Source of the DNA: Minisyncoccota bacterium
GTDB taxonomy: Bacteria; Patescibacteriota; Minisyncoccia; Phycocordibacterales; UBA9973
Assembly (NCBI GenBank): GCA_017991395.1
Contig: JAGOQQ010000003.1
Coordinates: forward strand, 66,400 to 109,084
DNA length: 42,685 nucleotides
Direction of reading: 5' to 3'
This document shows positions 35,245-42,685 of the stretch, piece by piece (within the stretch, counting starts at the first letter, position 1; the number at the start of each line of letters is the position of its first letter). Made by a program: the position numbers and the translations under genes. Under the pieces are notes generated by a model. It searched no databases, was not told where the DNA came from, and saw nothing but the letters and a program-made list of their open reading frames with translations.

Positions 35245-36060
35245 TTAACTAATTACATAATAATTTTTTTCTTTCACTATAAACCCTTCGCGAACTAGCT
35301 CCTGTATTTTTTCTTGTATCATATTTTTTCTATTTTTCAAAAGTGGAATTTTGCACAGCGCACCAAGTGTAGTCTTCTTATTCTCCAATATATATTTCAA
35401 CAGTGTACTTCTCACTTCCCGCCCCGATCCTTTGAACGGTGTTTGTTTTCGATAATGAATACTTTTGACATTCTTAGATTTTTTGACCTTTTTCAACATC
35501 ACCCCATAATCCATGAGCGCCCAGTACCATTCTCGTGGATTATCAGTGTCTAGTGTTTTCTCAACAAGACGAAGTATATCTTTGTCATGCACAAGCGTGT
35601 CGGTATTTTTGAAAAAGTAATCCAAAAAAACTGTTCTAATATTCGTCTCAATAAATACTAACGGAGTATTATGGGCAAATGTGATTATTGCTTTTGAGGT
35701 ATAGTCTCCGATGCCTGGGAGTGCCATAAGTGCGTCTACTTCAGTGGGTATTTTGCCCTTGAGACGCCCTACAATCTCCTCTCCTGCACGTTTCAAATTT
35801 AAACCTCTCCTATTGTATCCGAGCCCTTGCCACCTCTCTAAAACGTCTTTTTGACTCGCAGATGCAAGCGACTGAACTGTCGGAAATTGCTTCAAAAATT
35901 CCTTGTACTTTGGCACCACGCGATCAGTCTGTGTTTGCTGAAGCATCACCTCAGACACCCAAATATGATAGGGGTTCTTTGTCTTCCTCCACGGAAAATC
36001 ACGCTTGTGTTGATTGTAATAATCCCAGACGGTTTTCTGAAACTTTTTTATATCTCTCAT
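35245..36060 (-). CDS. mutY: MutY-like adenine DNA glycosylase lacking the iron-sulfur cluster
   Basis: 271 residues. MutY removes adenine mispaired with 8-oxoguanine. The HhH-GPD domain is clear: VSEVMLQQTQTDRVVPKY with Glu37, the hairpin LPGIGDYTSKAI (114-125), and the segment VFIETNIRTVF. In that last segment Glu138 stands where E. coli MutY has the catalytic Asp138. The four-Cys Fe-S ligand loop after ALMDYGVML is absent; only one Cys occurs in the protein. A short C-terminal winged-helix-like region (LLKYILENKKTTLGAL to GFIVKEKNYYVIS) replaces the usual NUDIX-like domain. It overlaps the peptidase gene by 4 nt (ATGA), so it is translationally coupled. Confidence 0.85.
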   Translation of the reverse strand: MRDIKKFQKTVWDYYNQHKRDFPWRKTKNPYHIWVSEVMLQQTQTDRVVPKYKEFLKQFPTVQSLASASQKDVLERWQGLGYNRRGLNLKRAGEEIVGRLKGKIPTEVDALMALPGIGDYTSKAIITFAHNTPLVFIETNIRTVFLDYFFKNTDTLVHDKDILRLVEKTLDTDNPREWYWALMDYGVMLKKVKKSKNVKSIHYRKQTPFKGSGREVRSTLLKYILENKKTTLGALCKIPLLKNRKNMIQEKIQELVREGFIVKEKNYYVIS

Positions 36061-38006
36061 ATTCCAAGTTCTTTCAAGAATGCTTCGTTTGATGGCTCAC
36101 GCTCAAGGAAATCACGAAGCAAGTCCATTTCTTTTTTGAGTGCGCCTTGTTCAAATATTTTTTGTCGCACTTCCTTGCCAAGTTGTCCGTTGAATATTCC
36201 TTTTTTCTTAAATTCTCCAAATATATCTTTTGCATATACAAGTGACCAAAGATAACTGTAATATGCTGATTCGTATCCGTGCATTAAATGTCCAAAACTT
36301 GCAGGAAAGAGAGATTTTTTTGATGGTGCGACTCCAGAATATTTTTTTCTAAGCATCGAATTGTGGACAACTATATCCTTGATGTTTTTTACGTGAATAT
36401 CTTGATCAAGCATTCCAAATAATATTTGTCCCACAACTCCACTTCCTGCTAAAAAATTCTTGGCACTCAACATTTTTTCCACCAATTCGTCTGGAATTTT
36501 TTTTCCAGTTTTGTAATGTTGACCAAGCATGCCAATAACTTCTTTATCCCATACCCATTGTTCAAAAAACTGCGATGGCACTTCCACAAAATCCCACGCC
36601 ACCTGAAATCCACCAAGTGATGCATATGGTTGCCGAGATGATATCGCATGAAGTGCATGTCCGAATTCATGAAATAATGTGACGACGTCCCCATGTGAAA
36701 TTATTGAAGGTGAATCTTTTGTCGGCTTTGCAAAATTACAAATGAGAGACATTATTGGCACTACTCGTACACCATTTTCTATTCTGCTATCTCGTACTTC
36801 AGCGACACATGCATGTCCATATTTTCCTTGTCTTGGAAAAAGGTCCACCACAATATACCCCATCACAGCCTTGCCGACTTTCGCCTCAAGTACAAATACA
36901 TCTTTGTCCCACACAGGCATTTTGACCGGGGTCAAACTTATTCCAAATACTTTCTTAACAATAGAAAAAAGGATTTTCACCACATGATTCATTTCAAAAT
37001 ATTCACGAATCATTTTTGAATCAAGTGCAAAGTGCTGTTTTTTGTATTCTTCACTCAAATATGCTGATTCAAAATACTTCACACTTGAATTATCTTTGAA
37101 ACGCTCACTTTTATACTTCGCGAGTAGCTCCAAATCATTTTTTGCGCAAAGTGATACTTTTTCCAAAAGATCGTTTTCAAAATTCATTACAGTCTTGTAG
37201 CTACTCGCCATTCGTCGCTCAATTTGATAATCAGTAAAATTTGCATACCCAAGAAGACTCGCGAGTTCTTTTCGAAGCGCAATATTCTTTTCCATAAGTA
37301 TCAAGTTTTCCTTTCCGCCTTTTTCGGCTGCTAAGTCTCCAAGTTCTTTACGCTTTTTTGCATTTTTCGCTTGCGACATAAACGGTATCAAATGCGGGTA
37401 TTGAAGAGTTACTTTATATTTTCCGTTCTTCTTTTCAAGTGAATCAATATAATGTTCAGAGAGTCCCTCAAGATCCTCGAGTGACATCCACAAATGTGCG
37501 TCCCAATCATTGAGTCTTTTATCAAAATTGGAACCATTTTTTGATATGAGATTCTTTATTTCTTTAACCCGCTTAAATTCTTTTGGTGGCAAATCGAAAC
37601 CCATTCGCGTATATGATGCATAGTATTCATCCAAAATCTTTTTGTCTGCATCTCGTACTGGTTGATGGTGCTCGAATACATATTTTATTGCTAAATAAAC
37701 TTTTTTACTATAAACAATTTGCAAAGATTTTTTGTCTGCCCATTCGATCATTTTTTTTGCGGCTTCTCGAACTTTCTTATCCGATGAGACATTCTTCAAA
37801 ACATCCATTGGTCGAATAACATCATTATACTTCGCTTCAATCGACTCAATTGCGAGTATAACGGATTCAAAATTTTGTTTTGATTGAGGAAGCGAAGCTA
37901 TTTTTTCATAGACTTTCTTTTTATCTTCAAGTACCTTTTTTGCCTTACTCTCTATCTGTGCCGGAGTCCATTTTACAAACGAAAAATACTTTTGTACGTC
38001 TTTCAT
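36057..38006 (-). CDS. M3-family zinc oligopeptidase
   Basis: 649 residues from the ATG at 38006. The zinc motif HEFGHALHA and a distal Glu place it in the thimet oligopeptidase/PepF family, which cleaves short peptides in the cytoplasm. There is no signal peptide. I reject a 45-codon upstream extension because it contains the -10 box and the CGCGGA array, and its composition is unlike protein. The start ATG is 9 nt after a TACAAT hexamer. Peptides imported by a solute-binding protein such as that at 27432 could be its substrates, an inference only. Confidence 0.93.
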   Translation of the reverse strand: MKDVQKYFSFVKWTPAQIESKAKKVLEDKKKVYEKIASLPQSKQNFESVILAIESIEAKYNDVIRPMDVLKNVSSDKKVREAAKKMIEWADKKSLQIVYSKKVYLAIKYVFEHHQPVRDADKKILDEYYASYTRMGFDLPPKEFKRVKEIKNLISKNGSNFDKRLNDWDAHLWMSLEDLEGLSEHYIDSLEKKNGKYKVTLQYPHLIPFMSQAKNAKKRKELGDLAAEKGGKENLILMEKNIALRKELASLLGYANFTDYQIERRMASSYKTVMNFENDLLEKVSLCAKNDLELLAKYKSERFKDNSSVKYFESAYLSEEYKKQHFALDSKMIREYFEMNHVVKILFSIVKKVFGISLTPVKMPVWDKDVFVLEAKVGKAVMGYIVVDLFPRQGKYGHACVAEVRDSRIENGVRVVPIMSLICNFAKPTKDSPSIISHGDVVTLFHEFGHALHAISSRQPYASLGGFQVAWDFVEVPSQFFEQWVWDKEVIGMLGQHYKTGKKIPDELVEKMLSAKNFLAGSGVVGQILFGMLDQDIHVKNIKDIVVHNSMLRKKYSGVAPSKKSLFPASFGHLMHGYESAYYSYLWSLVYAKDIFGEFKKKGIFNGQLGKEVRQKIFEQGALKKEMDLLRDFLEREPSNEAFLKELGI

Positions 38007-38015
38007 ATGGATTGT

Positions 38016-38021
38016 ATTGTA
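38016..38021 (-). promoter_or_regulatory. -10 box of the M3 peptidase operon, near-leaderless
   Basis: TACAAT on the minus strand, 9 nt upstream of the ATG at 38006; a candidate TTGCGT -35 lies 17 nt further upstream, inside the CGCGGA-repeat region. Confidence 0.5.
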
Positions 38022-38039
38022 CAGACGAAGGCCCAAAAA

Positions 38040-38076
38040 CGCAAAAAACCGCGGACAGACGCGGACTGGACGCGGA
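38040..38076. repeat. Helically phased CGC/CGCGGA array, copy 3
   Basis: CGC(GGA) units begin at 38040, 38050, 38060 and 38071, spacings of 10, 10 and 11 bp. The array is adjacent to the M3 peptidase promoter. Confidence 0.65.
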
Positions 38077-38082
38077 AAAAAT

Positions 38083-38175
38083 ACTCTTTCTCTTGTAACG
38101 CATTGCGCAAGGCTGACGAGCCGAGCATAGCAAAAATTCACCAGAATTTTATGCGTGCGTTATAAGAGAAAGAGT
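38083..38175. repeat. 93-bp palindromic intergenic element
   Basis: ACTCTTTCTCTT and AAGAGAAAGAGT are perfect 12-bp ends, continued inward by AACGCA/TGCGTT and, near the centre, AAAATTC-acca-GAATTTT. It could fold into one long hairpin and has no coding potential. Confidence 0.75.
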
Positions 38176-38188
38176 GAAGAAACATTGA

Positions 38189-38216
38189 GGATCCTGAAAC
38201 AAGTTCAGGATGACAC
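38189..38216 (+). repeat. Dispersed CCTGAAAC-AAGTTCAGG palindromic repeat, copy 3
   Basis: GGATCCTGAAACAAGTTCAG continuing to GATGACA; nearly identical to the copies at 5553 and 5775, 32 kb away. Confidence 0.8.
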
Positions 38217-38239
38217 AATACTGAAATCCACTAAAGTCT

Positions 38240-38260
38240 AAGGGAACACTTATGCAAGGC
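38240..38260 (+). repeat. Dispersed 21-nt motif, second copy
   Basis: AAGGGAACACTTATGCAAGG followed by C, one mismatch to 5482-5502. As at that locus, a CCTGAAAC-type repeat lies nearby, and ACTAGCGACTA-type sequence follows. Confidence 0.6.
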
Positions 38261-38295
38261 TAAAGACTAGCGACTAAAGACTGTATTGTAAGTCT

Positions 38296-39327
38296 TTACA
38301 CAAACTGAGGGAACAATATCATTGAATCATTCCAAATCCAAAGTCCAAGTAGTACCAAAAACACCAGTACACCTAGCAAGAAATGTTTGTAATGTCGCAT
38401 ACGTACTTCGTGGACCAAGAATATGAGGAGACCCACGAGCACAACCACCATCAAAATCAACAGTACATAACTGACAAGGAGTGACTGATTTGCAATAAAT
38501 CGTTCGAATCGTGTTGAGTAGTGTGGCACAGTTATTGTATCTGACGCAGTAGAATTTTGAGCTTGTACTTGTGAAATATCATCATTGACCACAATCGCAA
38601 GAGAATCATCATTGTATACTTCTTTTACAAATAGGGTGCCTGAATTTGAACTATCCTCTGCGGTAGCCGAAAGTACATTTGCAGATTGGGTATTTTCGTT
38701 TGTTGCCACCAAAGTAGCAGGCGCCACTTCAGTAAGAATTGTTTTTGGTGCAACAGGAAGAGTTGTCTTTGGCTTACCAAACATTTGCACCACATACACC
38801 GCATCTTTACCTTTTCGTACGCCTTTCATTGTGGCAATCCCAATCTCAGTAAAATGTTCATCTATAATATTTGCTTTATGTGTAGGAGAATTGAGCCATC
38901 CATTGTTTACGTCTTCAGATTGCACAAATCCCACCGCGAGATTTTCTCCGGCATACGAAAACGAATATCCTGCTTTTTTAAACCAATACCACGGAGTGAT
39001 ACCTTCAGGACTTGTATGAGCAAAATAATTTTTAGATACCATATCACTTGCTTTGAGCTGTGCGGCAAATTCAAGTTGCGGATTTACTATAAGTGGTGTT
39101 TTGTTTTCGCTGACACGTGTGTCATTTGTCAGATCAACAAGTACGGCAGTATAAATATTTCCAAGAAGTGATGAGGAATTTTTTACAAGATAAGAACTCC
39201 CAAGTGAAGACACACACATTACAACCGCAATCACCAAAATACCCACAAGAGATACTTGTCGAAACAAGTGAGGTGTGTGGTTGTTTTCTTCGTGAGGAAT
39301 AAAGTAGTCTTTGAGGACTTTTTTCAT
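38296..39327 (-). CDS. CAP/SCP-domain protein with two membrane regions
   Basis: 343 residues. A basic N-terminus precedes a transmembrane helix (about 26-47). The CAP domain (about 60-200) shows LTNDTRVSENKTPLIVNPQLEFAAQ-type spacing and the signature blocks YFAHTSPEG, YSFSYAGENLA and GWLNSPTHKANII with EIGIA. Bacterial CAP domains are exported and mostly of unknown activity. A Ser/Thr-rich stalk follows and two further helices lie near the C-terminus (LLVSYVLLILMVVVLVGLLIFLV in part, then LLGVLVFLVLLGLWIW). It has its own leaderless promoter and is the last gene on the strand before the repeat-rich gap. Confidence 0.9.
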   Translation of the reverse strand: MKKVLKDYFIPHEENNHTPHLFRQVSLVGILVIAVVMCVSSLGSSYLVKNSSSLLGNIYTAVLVDLTNDTRVSENKTPLIVNPQLEFAAQLKASDMVSKNYFAHTSPEGITPWYWFKKAGYSFSYAGENLAVGFVQSEDVNNGWLNSPTHKANIIDEHFTEIGIATMKGVRKGKDAVYVVQMFGKPKTTLPVAPKTILTEVAPATLVATNENTQSANVLSATAEDSSNSGTLFVKEVYNDDSLAIVVNDDISQVQAQNSTASDTITVPHYSTRFERFIANQSLLVSYVLLILMVVVLVGLLIFLVHEVRMRHYKHFLLGVLVFLVLLGLWIWNDSMILFPQFV

Positions 39328-39333
39328 ATTTAT

Positions 39334-39362
39334 ATTATACCACGGTTATATTAATAAATCAA
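39334..39362 (-). promoter_or_regulatory. Promoter of the CAP-domain gene, leaderless
   Basis: TTGATT (39357-39362), 17-nt spacer, TGG-TATAAT (39334-39339), then 6 nt to the ATG at 39327. It is the best-spaced leaderless promoter in the window. Confidence 0.75.
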
Positions 39363-39366
39363 GTGA

Positions 39367-39990
39367 TTACTCTTGTGGCTGTACTGCATCGCTTACATTT
39401 GCTACTGAATCTATGAAGTTTGCCTGGTAATTGTGTTGAGCATAAAAGAAAAATCCTCCCACAAGTGCAATCAGGCCAATCAAAAACGCCATTCTTTTGT
39501 ACTCACCTCGGATTATGAGATGGAGTCTTCCATCGGTCAGTACTGAATGTTCTAGTTCTTCCAGTGTCTCTATTTGCTCCTCGATTTTTTGTAGTACTTG
39601 TTCGTCTTTCTTTACCACCTGCTCAATCGTAACCGAAGGAGTTTCTTCCAATAGTTCAATTTCTTCCAGTACGCGAGACTCATCTTCCCTTTTCTTCTTC
39701 AGTAACACTTTTTCCTCTTTTAACTTTTGTTGCTTGTCGTACTCTTTTGAAAGCTCTTGGTATCGAATCAAAAGCGGAACAAAGGGATGCGAGTGTTCAA
39801 TCTTTTTTAATTCTTTAATTGATACAGATACTCCAGACTTAGTCGAGAGCAATCCATCTGTCGGCAAATTAAGTACTTCAAACAAAAAGTGTCGCAAATC
39901 TTTTGGTGTATCAATCTTGTAATCTCCCACAATCTGTGCGAGTTCTTTTTCAATTGTTTTTAATTCTTGTTTAATTTCTTTTAGAGTCAT
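39367..39990 (-). CDS. Tail-anchored coiled-coil protein with a DNA polymerase I thumb-like domain
   Basis: 207 residues from the ATG at 39990, 8 nt after the sortase stop. Residues ~13-84 read like the thumb subdomain of family A DNA polymerases: a helix ending LAQIVGD, then DTPKDLRHFLFEVLNLP, a TKSGVSVSIKEL segment and HPFVPLLIRYQELSK. These match, in order, the Pol I blocks NxxSPKQLxxxLFxxLxLP, TKTGxSTxxxxL and HPIVxxILxYRELxK. The polymerase palm and fingers motifs are absent. Residues ~85-150 are a charged coiled coil, 167-184 a transmembrane helix, and 23 residues lie beyond. Basic residues before the helix put the N-terminus in the cytoplasm. The identification is by eye. Confidence 0.7.
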   Translation of the reverse strand: MTLKEIKQELKTIEKELAQIVGDYKIDTPKDLRHFLFEVLNLPTDGLLSTKSGVSVSIKELKKIEHSHPFVPLLIRYQELSKEYDKQQKLKEEKVLLKKKREDESRVLEEIELLEETPSVTIEQVVKKDEQVLQKIEEQIETLEELEHSVLTDGRLHLIIRGEYKRMAFLIGLIALVGGFFFYAQHNYQANFIDSVANVSDAVQPQE

Positions 39991-39998
39991 AGATAGTT

Positions 39999-40604
39999 TT
40001 ATTGTGCTGGTAGTATGGGCACAGCATGCACCACATAACGGTGACTTGCTGTCCAAAGCGGTGTACACGTGTAAAGTGTCAGTCGTGCATCCGGTGTCGG
40101 GGATTCGATTGCGATTTCAGTCGGAAGAACTGTTTCTGTAGTCTCTACACCATAAGTATACAATATTCCATCCCACACCACATATATCTTATCTCCAGCT
40201 ACAAGCTTTGGCAGATGGTAAAATGTACTTGCTCTGTTTCCTCCAATTGTCGCATATCGGTGTGCCACCAACACTGTATTTCCGCCATCTTTCGGATTAC
40301 TTGTTTTTGGTCTTCGCCACACTCTCTCGTGCACCTGACCAATGTTGTCTGCCTCAATAATACTTTCACTCACTCCAATTGCGGGGATATACAAATAGTC
40401 TATTCCGTTCTTAATCGCCATCGTAATTTCATTTGGCAATTCCGTTTGTTCGGTATTTTTCTTACTATCATTGTGAAGTAGAAATGATATTTCTGGAAAA
40501 TACGGCGTAAGGAGAATAATGATGGTGAAGATAATTCCGACATAGCGAAGAATATCATTTATGATAATCAATCTCTTTGCTCTCTTGTACAGCTTTTCGT
40601 TCAT
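39999..40604 (-). CDS. Sortase, class E-like
   Basis: 201 residues. One N-terminal transmembrane helix (about 20-40) is followed by the sortase barrel. The catalytic His lies in VAHRYATIGGNRA, the Cys in TLYTCTPLWTASHRYVV, and the Arg in the HRY of that segment. TLxTCTPxxxAxHRYVV is closest to class E-type sortases, which act on LAxTG rather than LPxTG motifs. The gene upstream on the same strand ends with LAQTG, so the pair is an enzyme with its substrate. I start at the ATG at 40604; the ten-codon extension overlaps the -10 box. Confidence 0.92.
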   Translation of the reverse strand: MNEKLYKRAKRLIIINDILRYVGIIFTIIILLTPYFPEISFLLHNDSKKNTEQTELPNEITMAIKNGIDYLYIPAIGVSESIIEADNIGQVHERVWRRPKTSNPKDGGNTVLVAHRYATIGGNRASTFYHLPKLVAGDKIYVVWDGILYTYGVETTETVLPTEIAIESPTPDARLTLYTCTPLWTASHRYVVHAVPILPAQ

Positions 40605-40610
40605 AGTTAT

Positions 40611-40616
40611 ATAGTA
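40611..40616 (-). promoter_or_regulatory. Extended -10 promoter of the sortase operon, leaderless
   Basis: TGC-TACTAT on the minus strand ends 6 nt before the ATG at 40604, directly after the terminator of the substrate gene. Confidence 0.6.
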
Positions 40617-40617
40617 G

Positions 40618-40654
40618 CAAACAAAAAGACCCAATGTGTGGGTCTTTTTGTTTG
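40618..40654. terminator. Terminator after the LAQTG surface protein gene
   Basis: CAAACAAAAAGACCCA pairs perfectly with TGGGTCTTTTTGTTTG around a 5-nt loop (16-bp stem). Confidence 0.92.
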
Positions 40655-40669
40655 CAGTATGTGCATAAA

Positions 40670-42685
40670 CTAGTTTAATGCGAGTTTTTTGTCTTCCTTT
40701 CGTCGTGCGATTACAAAGAGTACGAATGCGATAAGCGCAGCGAATGAAATTGGTGAGAAATCAACTCCAGTTTGTGCAAGAGTTTCCCCCAGCACTTCAC
40801 CATCAGTTGTAGTTGCACCAAGTACTTCACCATCACCTGAAGAAGATGAGCGACTTCCAGATCGTGAACTACCACTTGATGAGCCTCCTCCGTTTGAACC
40901 TCCGTCTGGAGTTTCAGGAATAATTTCACATATTGTTGAACAAGTTGAGCTTCCACCTGGGCCTCCGTCACATGCTTCACCTTCATCTAGATTGCCATTT
41001 CCGCACAAATCTGGCGTCTCGACTGTACATGTTACAGAAACATTATCAACAAATGTTCCCACTGAATCACTTGTTCCCATGTCTTCAAGAGATACTGTTG
41101 TTGAAACTCCTGTTGCAGTAAATGTTCGTGTGACTGTTCTCCAGTCTGTTTGAGTTCCTGAAGAATTATCTTCTGGTTCTCCTCCTGGTGCAATCAATAC
41201 TCCATCTACTTTAAATCCGAGTTGGTTTTGTGTTGCATCTGTTCCAGGTCGTCCAGAATAATCAACAGAAATTGTATATACTCGTCCACCTACTGTAGAA
41301 ATAGTTTGAGAAATTCGTGTTGATGCTGGTTCGTTTGAAGTATTTCCGGTTGGACCTTCCCAGTCTCCATCAAGTTCAGCATATTGGTATCCTTCTCCAG
41401 ATGGAAGCCATCCATTCACACCACGGTGAAGCTCTAGGCTTGCTGTAGTTGGAATTGTGTCATCTCCATATGTTGTACCTGCAGCTGCTACCCAGTCCAC
41501 AAGCCATCCGAGTCCTGCTGTTCCTGAATTTACGATATCCCATCCTGAAGCAACTGCAACGTCTTCAAAGCTTCCGTTTGTGATCAATTCGATTTCTGGA
41601 TTACATACTGGATTTTGAGTAATGTTTTGACAAGTGTTTGTACAAGTCTGACTTCCGTTTAGACCTGCATCACATTGTTCTGATGTTTGATTTACGATTC
41701 CATCTCCACAGAATGGAGTTGGTTCACTACAATCATCTACGATTGGTTCTGAGATGTTTGTATAAAATCCATCATTTCCAGTACTTGTTGTCATCCAGAA
41801 ATATGATTTTCCTCCATCGATCCAGATTTCATCTTCTGTATCCTTGATGAGCTTTATGTTATTTGAAAAATGCTCAACTGGTGCAACAAGGTCATTTTCT
41901 TGACTAAGTGCTGAGGCATTTTGAAATTCAATATATCCTTCAATATGCTCTTGAGGTTTTGGTGTTGAATAAATGAAAGGTCCAATGTCTCGAACATGAA
42001 TTTTTCCATCCATTCGTCGAATTGCAAGACCTGGAACATTGTGAAATGTACCAATGTTTGGATCTGTAATCCAGTTTGTACCATCATATATTTCAAACCA
42101 TTCACCTGAAGCATATTTGTGAGCAGGTGTATTTCCACCTACGTATACATCTGATGTAATGTTTCCTCCTAGTCCAACATTTTGAACGTCAGTTACGACA
42201 ACTCGTGCCATAATCTTTTCTGAACATTGATTTCCTCCTCCACAATCTTCAGTCTTAAGATCAAGCTTAAAGAGTGCACCTGCTGGGTTGCTTTCTGGAT
42301 TTTGATTACCAGCCATATTCATGACTTCCATTTTGATTGTATTTGGTCCATCTACGAAATATGTTGGATTGATGTCACCATATGCGTCTTGACCTGCTGC
42401 ACTGTAATTAAATTCAGTGAGGTCTTGTCCAATAAGTGTTCCGTTGATCCATACCTTGTATTGGTTGTCTGCAGCTACCATAAGATCAGCATCAAGTACT
42501 ACTCCATCCACATTGAAAGTTTTTTCAAATGTTTTTGTAACATCCTGAGTTGTGTTTACTGCATAAAATGTCTCCCAAATCCATGTTGCACCAGGAATAC
42601 TTGCAGTCCAATTTGGGTGTACCCATGTTGCTACTGCATTTGCATTTCCATTTTCAACTACAGTTGCTGTAGTATCACTCACCAC
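40670..42685 (-). CDS. LAQTG-anchored modular surface protein, 5' end outside the window
   Basis: 671 residues are visible; the frame is open at the right edge, so the N-terminus is missing. A jelly-roll-like carbohydrate-binding segment (VAADNQYKVWINGTLIG) comes first. Then come two Cys-rich repeats of the type CGDGIVNQTSEQCDAG and CGNGNLDEGEACDGG, as found in myxococcal and other bacterial surface proteins. Between them lies a DUF642-like domain (ELITNGSFEDVAVASGW, GEGYQYAELDGDW, FVDNVSVTC). A Ser/Gly linker leads to the sorting signal: LAQTG, a hydrophobic helix (ISFAALIAFVLFVIA) and the basic tail RRKEDKK. The neighbouring sortase should cleave at this motif and attach the protein to the cell envelope. 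Confidence 0.92.
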   Translation of the reverse strand: MVSDTTATVVENGNANAVATWVHPNWTASIPGATWIWETFYAVNTTQDVTKTFEKTFNVDGVVLDADLMVAADNQYKVWINGTLIGQDLTEFNYSAAGQDAYGDINPTYFVDGPNTIKMEVMNMAGNQNPESNPAGALFKLDLKTEDCGGGNQCSEKIMARVVVTDVQNVGLGGNITSDVYVGGNTPAHKYASGEWFEIYDGTNWITDPNIGTFHNVPGLAIRRMDGKIHVRDIGPFIYSTPKPQEHIEGYIEFQNASALSQENDLVAPVEHFSNNIKLIKDTEDEIWIDGGKSYFWMTTSTGNDGFYTNISEPIVDDCSEPTPFCGDGIVNQTSEQCDAGLNGSQTCTNTCQNITQNPVCNPEIELITNGSFEDVAVASGWDIVNSGTAGLGWLVDWVAAAGTTYGDDTIPTTASLELHRGVNGWLPSGEGYQYAELDGDWEGPTGNTSNEPASTRISQTISTVGGRVYTISVDYSGRPGTDATQNQLGFKVDGVLIAPGGEPEDNSSGTQTDWRTVTRTFTATGVSTTVSLEDMGTSDSVGTFVDNVSVTCTVETPDLCGNGNLDEGEACDGGPGGSSTCSTICEIIPETPDGGSNGGGSSSGSSRSGSRSSSSGDGEVLGATTTDGEVLGETLAQTGVDFSPISFAALIAFVLFVIARRKEDKKLALN

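Follow-up and report, generated by a model that had tools for sequence, protein, structure and literature searches.

To our knowledge, the thumb of DNA polymerase I does not occur apart from the polymerase. The window analyzed here, a stretch of 42,685 nucleotides from a Minisyncoccota genome, contains a gene (P0001) that shares the whole thumb with the polymerases of Bst, Taq and Paceibacteria, with an alike predicted fold, but its product lacks the palm, the fingers, the 5' nuclease and the 3' exonuclease and carries a membrane anchor that the polymerase does not have. The gene is located in a locus that resembles sortase/LPXTG-type substrate loci in its sortase domain and adjoining LAQTG surface protein, and that differs from them by one more gene, whose product includes a domain derived from a polymerase. 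The closest positional counterpart of P0001 is a 66-aa protein of JAGOPB010000021.1, which occupies the same slot and strand and has a positive flank before its helix and a YxANF sequence after it, but which lacks the thumb and stalk and shows only modest likeness in the tail. The features of the locus are as follows.

40670 to 42685, minus strand: surface protein whose end consists of LAQTG, a hydrophobic helix and a charged tail; homologous gene order in a related genome, G215
40617 to 40655, minus strand: 17-pair hairpin between the genes for this surface protein and the sortase (-26.3 kcal/mol, z -8.83, 0 of 200 shuffles)
39999 to 40604, minus strand: sortase P0002, 201 aa, directly upstream of P0001 (Pfam Sortase, E 7.7e-24 on the 211-aa ORF)
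39367 to 39990, minus strand: gene P0001, 207 aa, with thumb, helical stalk, transmembrane helix and short outer tail (from the ORF and its translation)
39745 to 39981, minus strand: thumb subdomain of P0001, residues 4-82 (sequence matches and fold overlay)
39535 to 39744, minus strand: stalk of P0001, residues 83-152, helical and probably coiled-coil (model helices, heptad signal)
39520 to 39534, minus strand: DGRLH of P0001, residues 153-157, a possible second polA remnant (shuffle test)
39436 to 39492, minus strand: transmembrane helix of P0001, residues 167-185 (hydropathy, flank charges)
39370 to 39435, minus strand: 22-residue tail of P0001, residues 186-207, predicted outside (translation, flank charge)
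38296 to 39327, minus strand: CAP-domain membrane protein P0003, 343 aa, downstream of P0001 (Pfam CAP, E 1.9e-15)

The reading frame of P0001 is intact, running from an ATG at 39990 to a stop codon at 39367-39369. A preliminary description of this DNA had recognized three blocks of a polymerase thumb in the correct order, and these are present in residues 4-82. A phmmer search with residues 1-90 against 177,635 PDB sequences confirmed the proposed relationship to family A polymerases, with a match to Bst DNA polymerase I over residues 4-82 (E 5.3e-8) and matches to Taq at E 2e-4 to 4e-4. Similarly, positions 519-598 of the 890 positions in NCBIfam model TIGR00593 (polA) aligned with residues 4-83 (E 2.2e-9), a thumb profile built from the polA of 38 relatives scored 48 bits on P0001, and all 39 PolA proteins tested matched the P0001 thumb with i-E values of 1e-12 to 3e-9. 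In an alignment with 39 Paceibacteria PolA sequences, the likeness starts at thumb helix H and ends inside helix I, past which PolA continues to the palm whereas P0001 becomes a charged helix. The only polA of the host genome, a frame of 793 aa that matches Pfam DNA_pol_A with E 1.2e-142, is 38% identical to P0001 over the thumb (E 2.4e-8); for the polA genes of the order's genomes this identity is 27-41% among the matches listed. Pfam and NCBIfam found no palm, fingers or catalytic motifs in P0001 (the polA model covers residues 4-83 only) and no 5' nuclease or 3' exonuclease domain, as the preliminary description had stated for the palm and nuclease. By sequence, residues 4-82 are homologous to the whole thumb of Pol I, with all other polymerase parts absent.

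Structure prediction placed a thumb both in a model of the whole protein (mean pLDDT 75.1, pTM 0.45; 7-row alignment with phage thumbs) and in a model of residues 1-92 (mean pLDDT 84.4). The overlay suggested in the preliminary description agreed with the assignment: the superposition of residues 1-92 on Bst Pol I covered 89 residues at 1.6 A, in a range of 1.5-1.9 A for Bst, and had a Z score of 13.8, where values up to about 13 can arise for helical bundles. It also superposed on Taq, M. smegmatis Pol1 and human Pol theta, the overlays on polymerase thumbs ranging from 1.5 to 2.0 A, and the 50 rows listed in a structure search were all family A polymerases, although polymerase thumbs were present in the modelling alignment and the fold match is not independent of the sequence match. 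Residues 1-92 are thus predicted to adopt a compact thumb fold.

The remainder of the protein is predicted to consist of a helical stalk, a membrane helix and a short tail. The model has long helices at residues 70-116 and 122-152; the coiled coil of the preliminary description is supported in part, by a heptad periodicity that is clear in the latter and weak in the former. The thumb carries a net charge of +1 and residues 83-157 one of -9. The single transmembrane helix described earlier corresponds to the only hydrophobic segment of P0001 (residues 167-185, hydropathy 1.95), which is flanked by a charge of +2 on its N-terminal side (with KR just ahead) and -3 in the tail, so that the protein has the one hydrophobic helix and positive inner flank of a single-pass membrane protein. 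The positively charged flank of a membrane helix stays inside (the positive-inside rule), and these flanks therefore predict that the N-terminus is inside and the thumb cytoplasmic. Between stalk and helix, the DGRLH sequence resembles the strand with which the PolA palm begins. In a test with 20,000 shuffles, 40 scored equally high, which is only suggestive of a second scrap of polA.

P0001 is adjacent to and co-directional with the sortase gene, with 8 bases between the sortase stop codon and its ATG, and a further 39 bases separate it from the CAP gene. The best NCBIfam subfamily for the sortase is class E, at a score under that model's cut-off, and the CAP protein matches NCBIfam spore_YkwD with E 1.4e-31. 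The LAQTG surface protein, whose gene lies upstream of the sortase gene and has lost its 5' end at the contig end, is likely the sortase substrate. The hairpin at 40617-40655 is flanked by A and T runs and is probably a two-way terminator. Since it splits the substrate gene from the sortase gene, a separate unit made up of the sortase gene, P0001 and the CAP gene is probable. The operon with sortase put forward in the preliminary description is supported as a gene block and is a putative operon by gene order and the 8-base gap. The CAP gene may have a promoter of its own in a promoter-like site at 39362-39334, but this site proves nothing because 13 of the kind occur in the region against 11.5 expected, and Rfam had no match within 38000-42685. 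A coding pattern for LAQTG occurs at two places in the genome, and the one at G000:C8:122990 has no motif-bearing open frame of at least 60 aa; the sortase may have a single LAQTG-type substrate. Elsewhere in the window, 35245-36060 encodes an HhH-GPD DNA glycosylase (Pfam) that by eye is MutY-like and seems to be without the cysteine cluster of the iron-sulphur loop.

A related sortase operon was found in one place only, a Candidatus Paceibacterota genome (G215, JAGOPB010000021.1, loci L078/L079), where the order of substrate, sortase, 66-aa one-helix protein and CAP gene matches that in the window. The slot of P0001 is thus conserved in one other locus, and the 66-aa protein that fills it has no thumb. 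Orthologues next to sortases, which the preliminary description had suggested looking for, were not found, this being the sole syntenic locus that the searches turned up. A sortase profile retrieved only the host's own genome from 297 order genomes at E 1e-20, and five genomes from 99 family genomes at E 0.001, with G215 alone close. Comparison of the P0001 tail with the 66-aa protein gave shuffled scores as good in 16 of 5000 cases for the whole and 8 of 5000 for the segment. An unrelated-looking 304-aa membrane protein frame reached a local score of 78 versus 45 for the 66-aa protein, so the kinship of the latter with P0001 rests mainly on gene order. Inspection by eye of the CAP loci of the family (30 loci, 29 parsed, one without a CAP frame) located a thumb protein upstream of CAP at the window's locus only. 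The family's orthologues of the CAP gene at 38296-39327 (L044-L072) are mostly found downstream of variable secreted surface proteins, not sortase, and many of these surface proteins appear by eye to end in a peptidoglycan-binding-like part.

Besides P0001, no thumb outside a polymerase was detected among the matches listed and the frames inspected in 197 genomes of the order, 99 of the family, 379 of the phylum and 383 of the class, which are overlapping sets. The order and family searches used P0001 and the phylum and class searches the thumb profile A2. Thumb matches were obtained in at least 168 of the 197 order genomes, at least 250 of the 379 phylum genomes and at least 284 of the 383 class genomes; the family gave matches in 87 of 99 genomes at a looser E of 1, some of them to the coil or membrane helix. 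At the genus level the host's own genome is the sole genome in the set and no orthologue was found, and a scan of the genome contig collection with P0001 yielded 66 stretches that fit a pattern, none coding a relative. Five other genomes had two thumb matches in the phylum and class searches. G997 has a frame-broken polA, and the second match of G1012 lies inside a 610-aa polymerase-like frame; G503 has two frames of over 700 aa, and G761 and G815, as listed, have polymerase pieces divided between contigs or frames. In G997, another member of the class whose genome is a single contig, polA is split at the thumb into several frames (L112, G997:C1 near 134702-134937), a break that could be a pseudogene, a frameshift or a sequencing error. 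As listed, the match in G585 is a frame of 70 aa that contains a stop and lies where a contig begins. With tblastn, 18 phage and 15 plasmid records were retrieved in which all matches that carry an annotation are polA or DNA polymerase, with no feature under the match in all 18 phage and 8 of the 15 plasmid records. Seven loci were retrieved from viral contigs and are polymerase-like, and candidate relatives of the membrane tail or coil in G289, G208 and G236 look like chance. In the portion of the literature that was accessible, no report of a membrane-anchored polymerase thumb protein was found. A tree of 45 thumbs put P0001 on a branch of 2.56, and neither its grouping with the host's own polA (p-AU 0.71) nor that with phage thumbs (p-AU 0.66) was rejected, so the tree names no single donor.

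We consider it about an even chance that P0001 is a repurposed thumb that acts as a cytoplasmic docking head on a membrane stalk, with a partner that is more likely protein than DNA. The thumb would have come free of a polA gene and, with the helical stalk as connector, been joined to a small membrane protein with one transmembrane pass encoded at the sortase locus, and addition of a thumb to such a protein is the simplest story for the origin of P0001. The thumb would no longer grip a primer-template, because there is no palm and several invariant residues are lost. The head would instead bind a cytoplasmic partner, presumably a protein rather than DNA, and hold it beneath the membrane where the sortase and the CAP protein act.

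The preliminary description had interpreted the protein as a membrane-tethered DNA-binding part, and as a whole that interpretation is partly supported. A tethered binder of duplex DNA, which would hold the minor groove and tie the chromosome or entering DNA at the sortase site, is a possibility that we rate somewhat lower, even though the predicted cytoplasmic side of the thumb suits it. According to Table 2 of PMC10009445, 12 residues of the Taq thumb lie within 5 A of primer phosphates. At these positions P0001 has five identical residues (Taq K508, S513, S515, E537 and K540), two Thr-to-Ser changes (T506 and T509) and five other residues; retention of K508, S513, E537 and K540 agrees with DNA binding. 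The excess of change at contact positions over the other positions of the thumb (12 vs 62) is not significant (p 0.13), and the net charge of the thumb is not outside the values spanned by the 39 polA thumbs. Against DNA binding, N483, T514 and R536, which are identical in 39 of 39 polA relatives, are Lys, Val and Gln in P0001; R536, which is reported in PMC12795823 to bind the fourth phosphate, corresponds to Q78. The charges of +1 on the thumb and -9 on the stalk also argue against it, as does the lack of a palm to complete the cleft. With contact residues part kept and part lost, no significant excess of change and a charge within range, protein docking would rank above DNA tethering, but not by much.

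It is unlikely that P0001 is a recent non-functional fusion in which a polA fragment landed in a small membrane-protein gene and has no role. The restriction to one genome and the related G215 locus that does without a thumb would fit such an event, but the frame is open even though the thumb has diverged by about 62% from the host's own polA. Neutral simulation of the host's polA thumb to 38% identity left only 61 of 3000 runs without a stop codon (indels ignored). Moreover, 11 of the 18 positions that are at least 90% conserved in the 39 polA thumbs are kept in P0001, including every nonpolar one, and the changes are all at polar residues (N25K, S28T, Q31D, K48L, T56V, R78Q and T83E). An open frame after such divergence and the retained nonpolar positions suggest that the fold persisted as some of the polar surface was altered, in line with the compact thumb that is predicted. 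These data indicate that the thumb is kept open by selection, although P0001 is known in one genome and its conservation is not attested by any orthologue in the genomes searched. That the likeness is chance or coiled-coil resemblance and not a thumb is highly improbable: Pfam-A gave P0001 no DNA_pol_A match even at E up to 10, which we attribute to its short and diverged thumb, and PHROGs gave none below E 0.086, but two separate searches gave E 5.3e-8 and 2.2e-9, and the aligned stretch includes the H1-loop-H2 tip, which is not a coil, and ends at the border of the subdomain.

A repurposed thumb that docks a cytoplasmic partner thus remains our preferred reading of P0001. That a membrane protein encoded at a sortase locus reuses the thumb of a polymerase is unusual and well supported, and the protein is small and testable. 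A selected copy of the thumb outside any polymerase and anchored in the membrane would mean that the fold can act as a binding head without the other polymerase parts. DNA binding by P0001, should it occur, would make the protein a novel type of connection between membrane and nucleoid beside surface-protein anchoring. It is rather doubtful that it acts as a stand-alone, membrane-anchored clamp that holds chromosomal or incoming DNA where surface proteins are anchored, physically connecting the nucleoid with the sortase machinery; if true, it would constitute a nucleoid-sortase link in an ultra-small bacterium.
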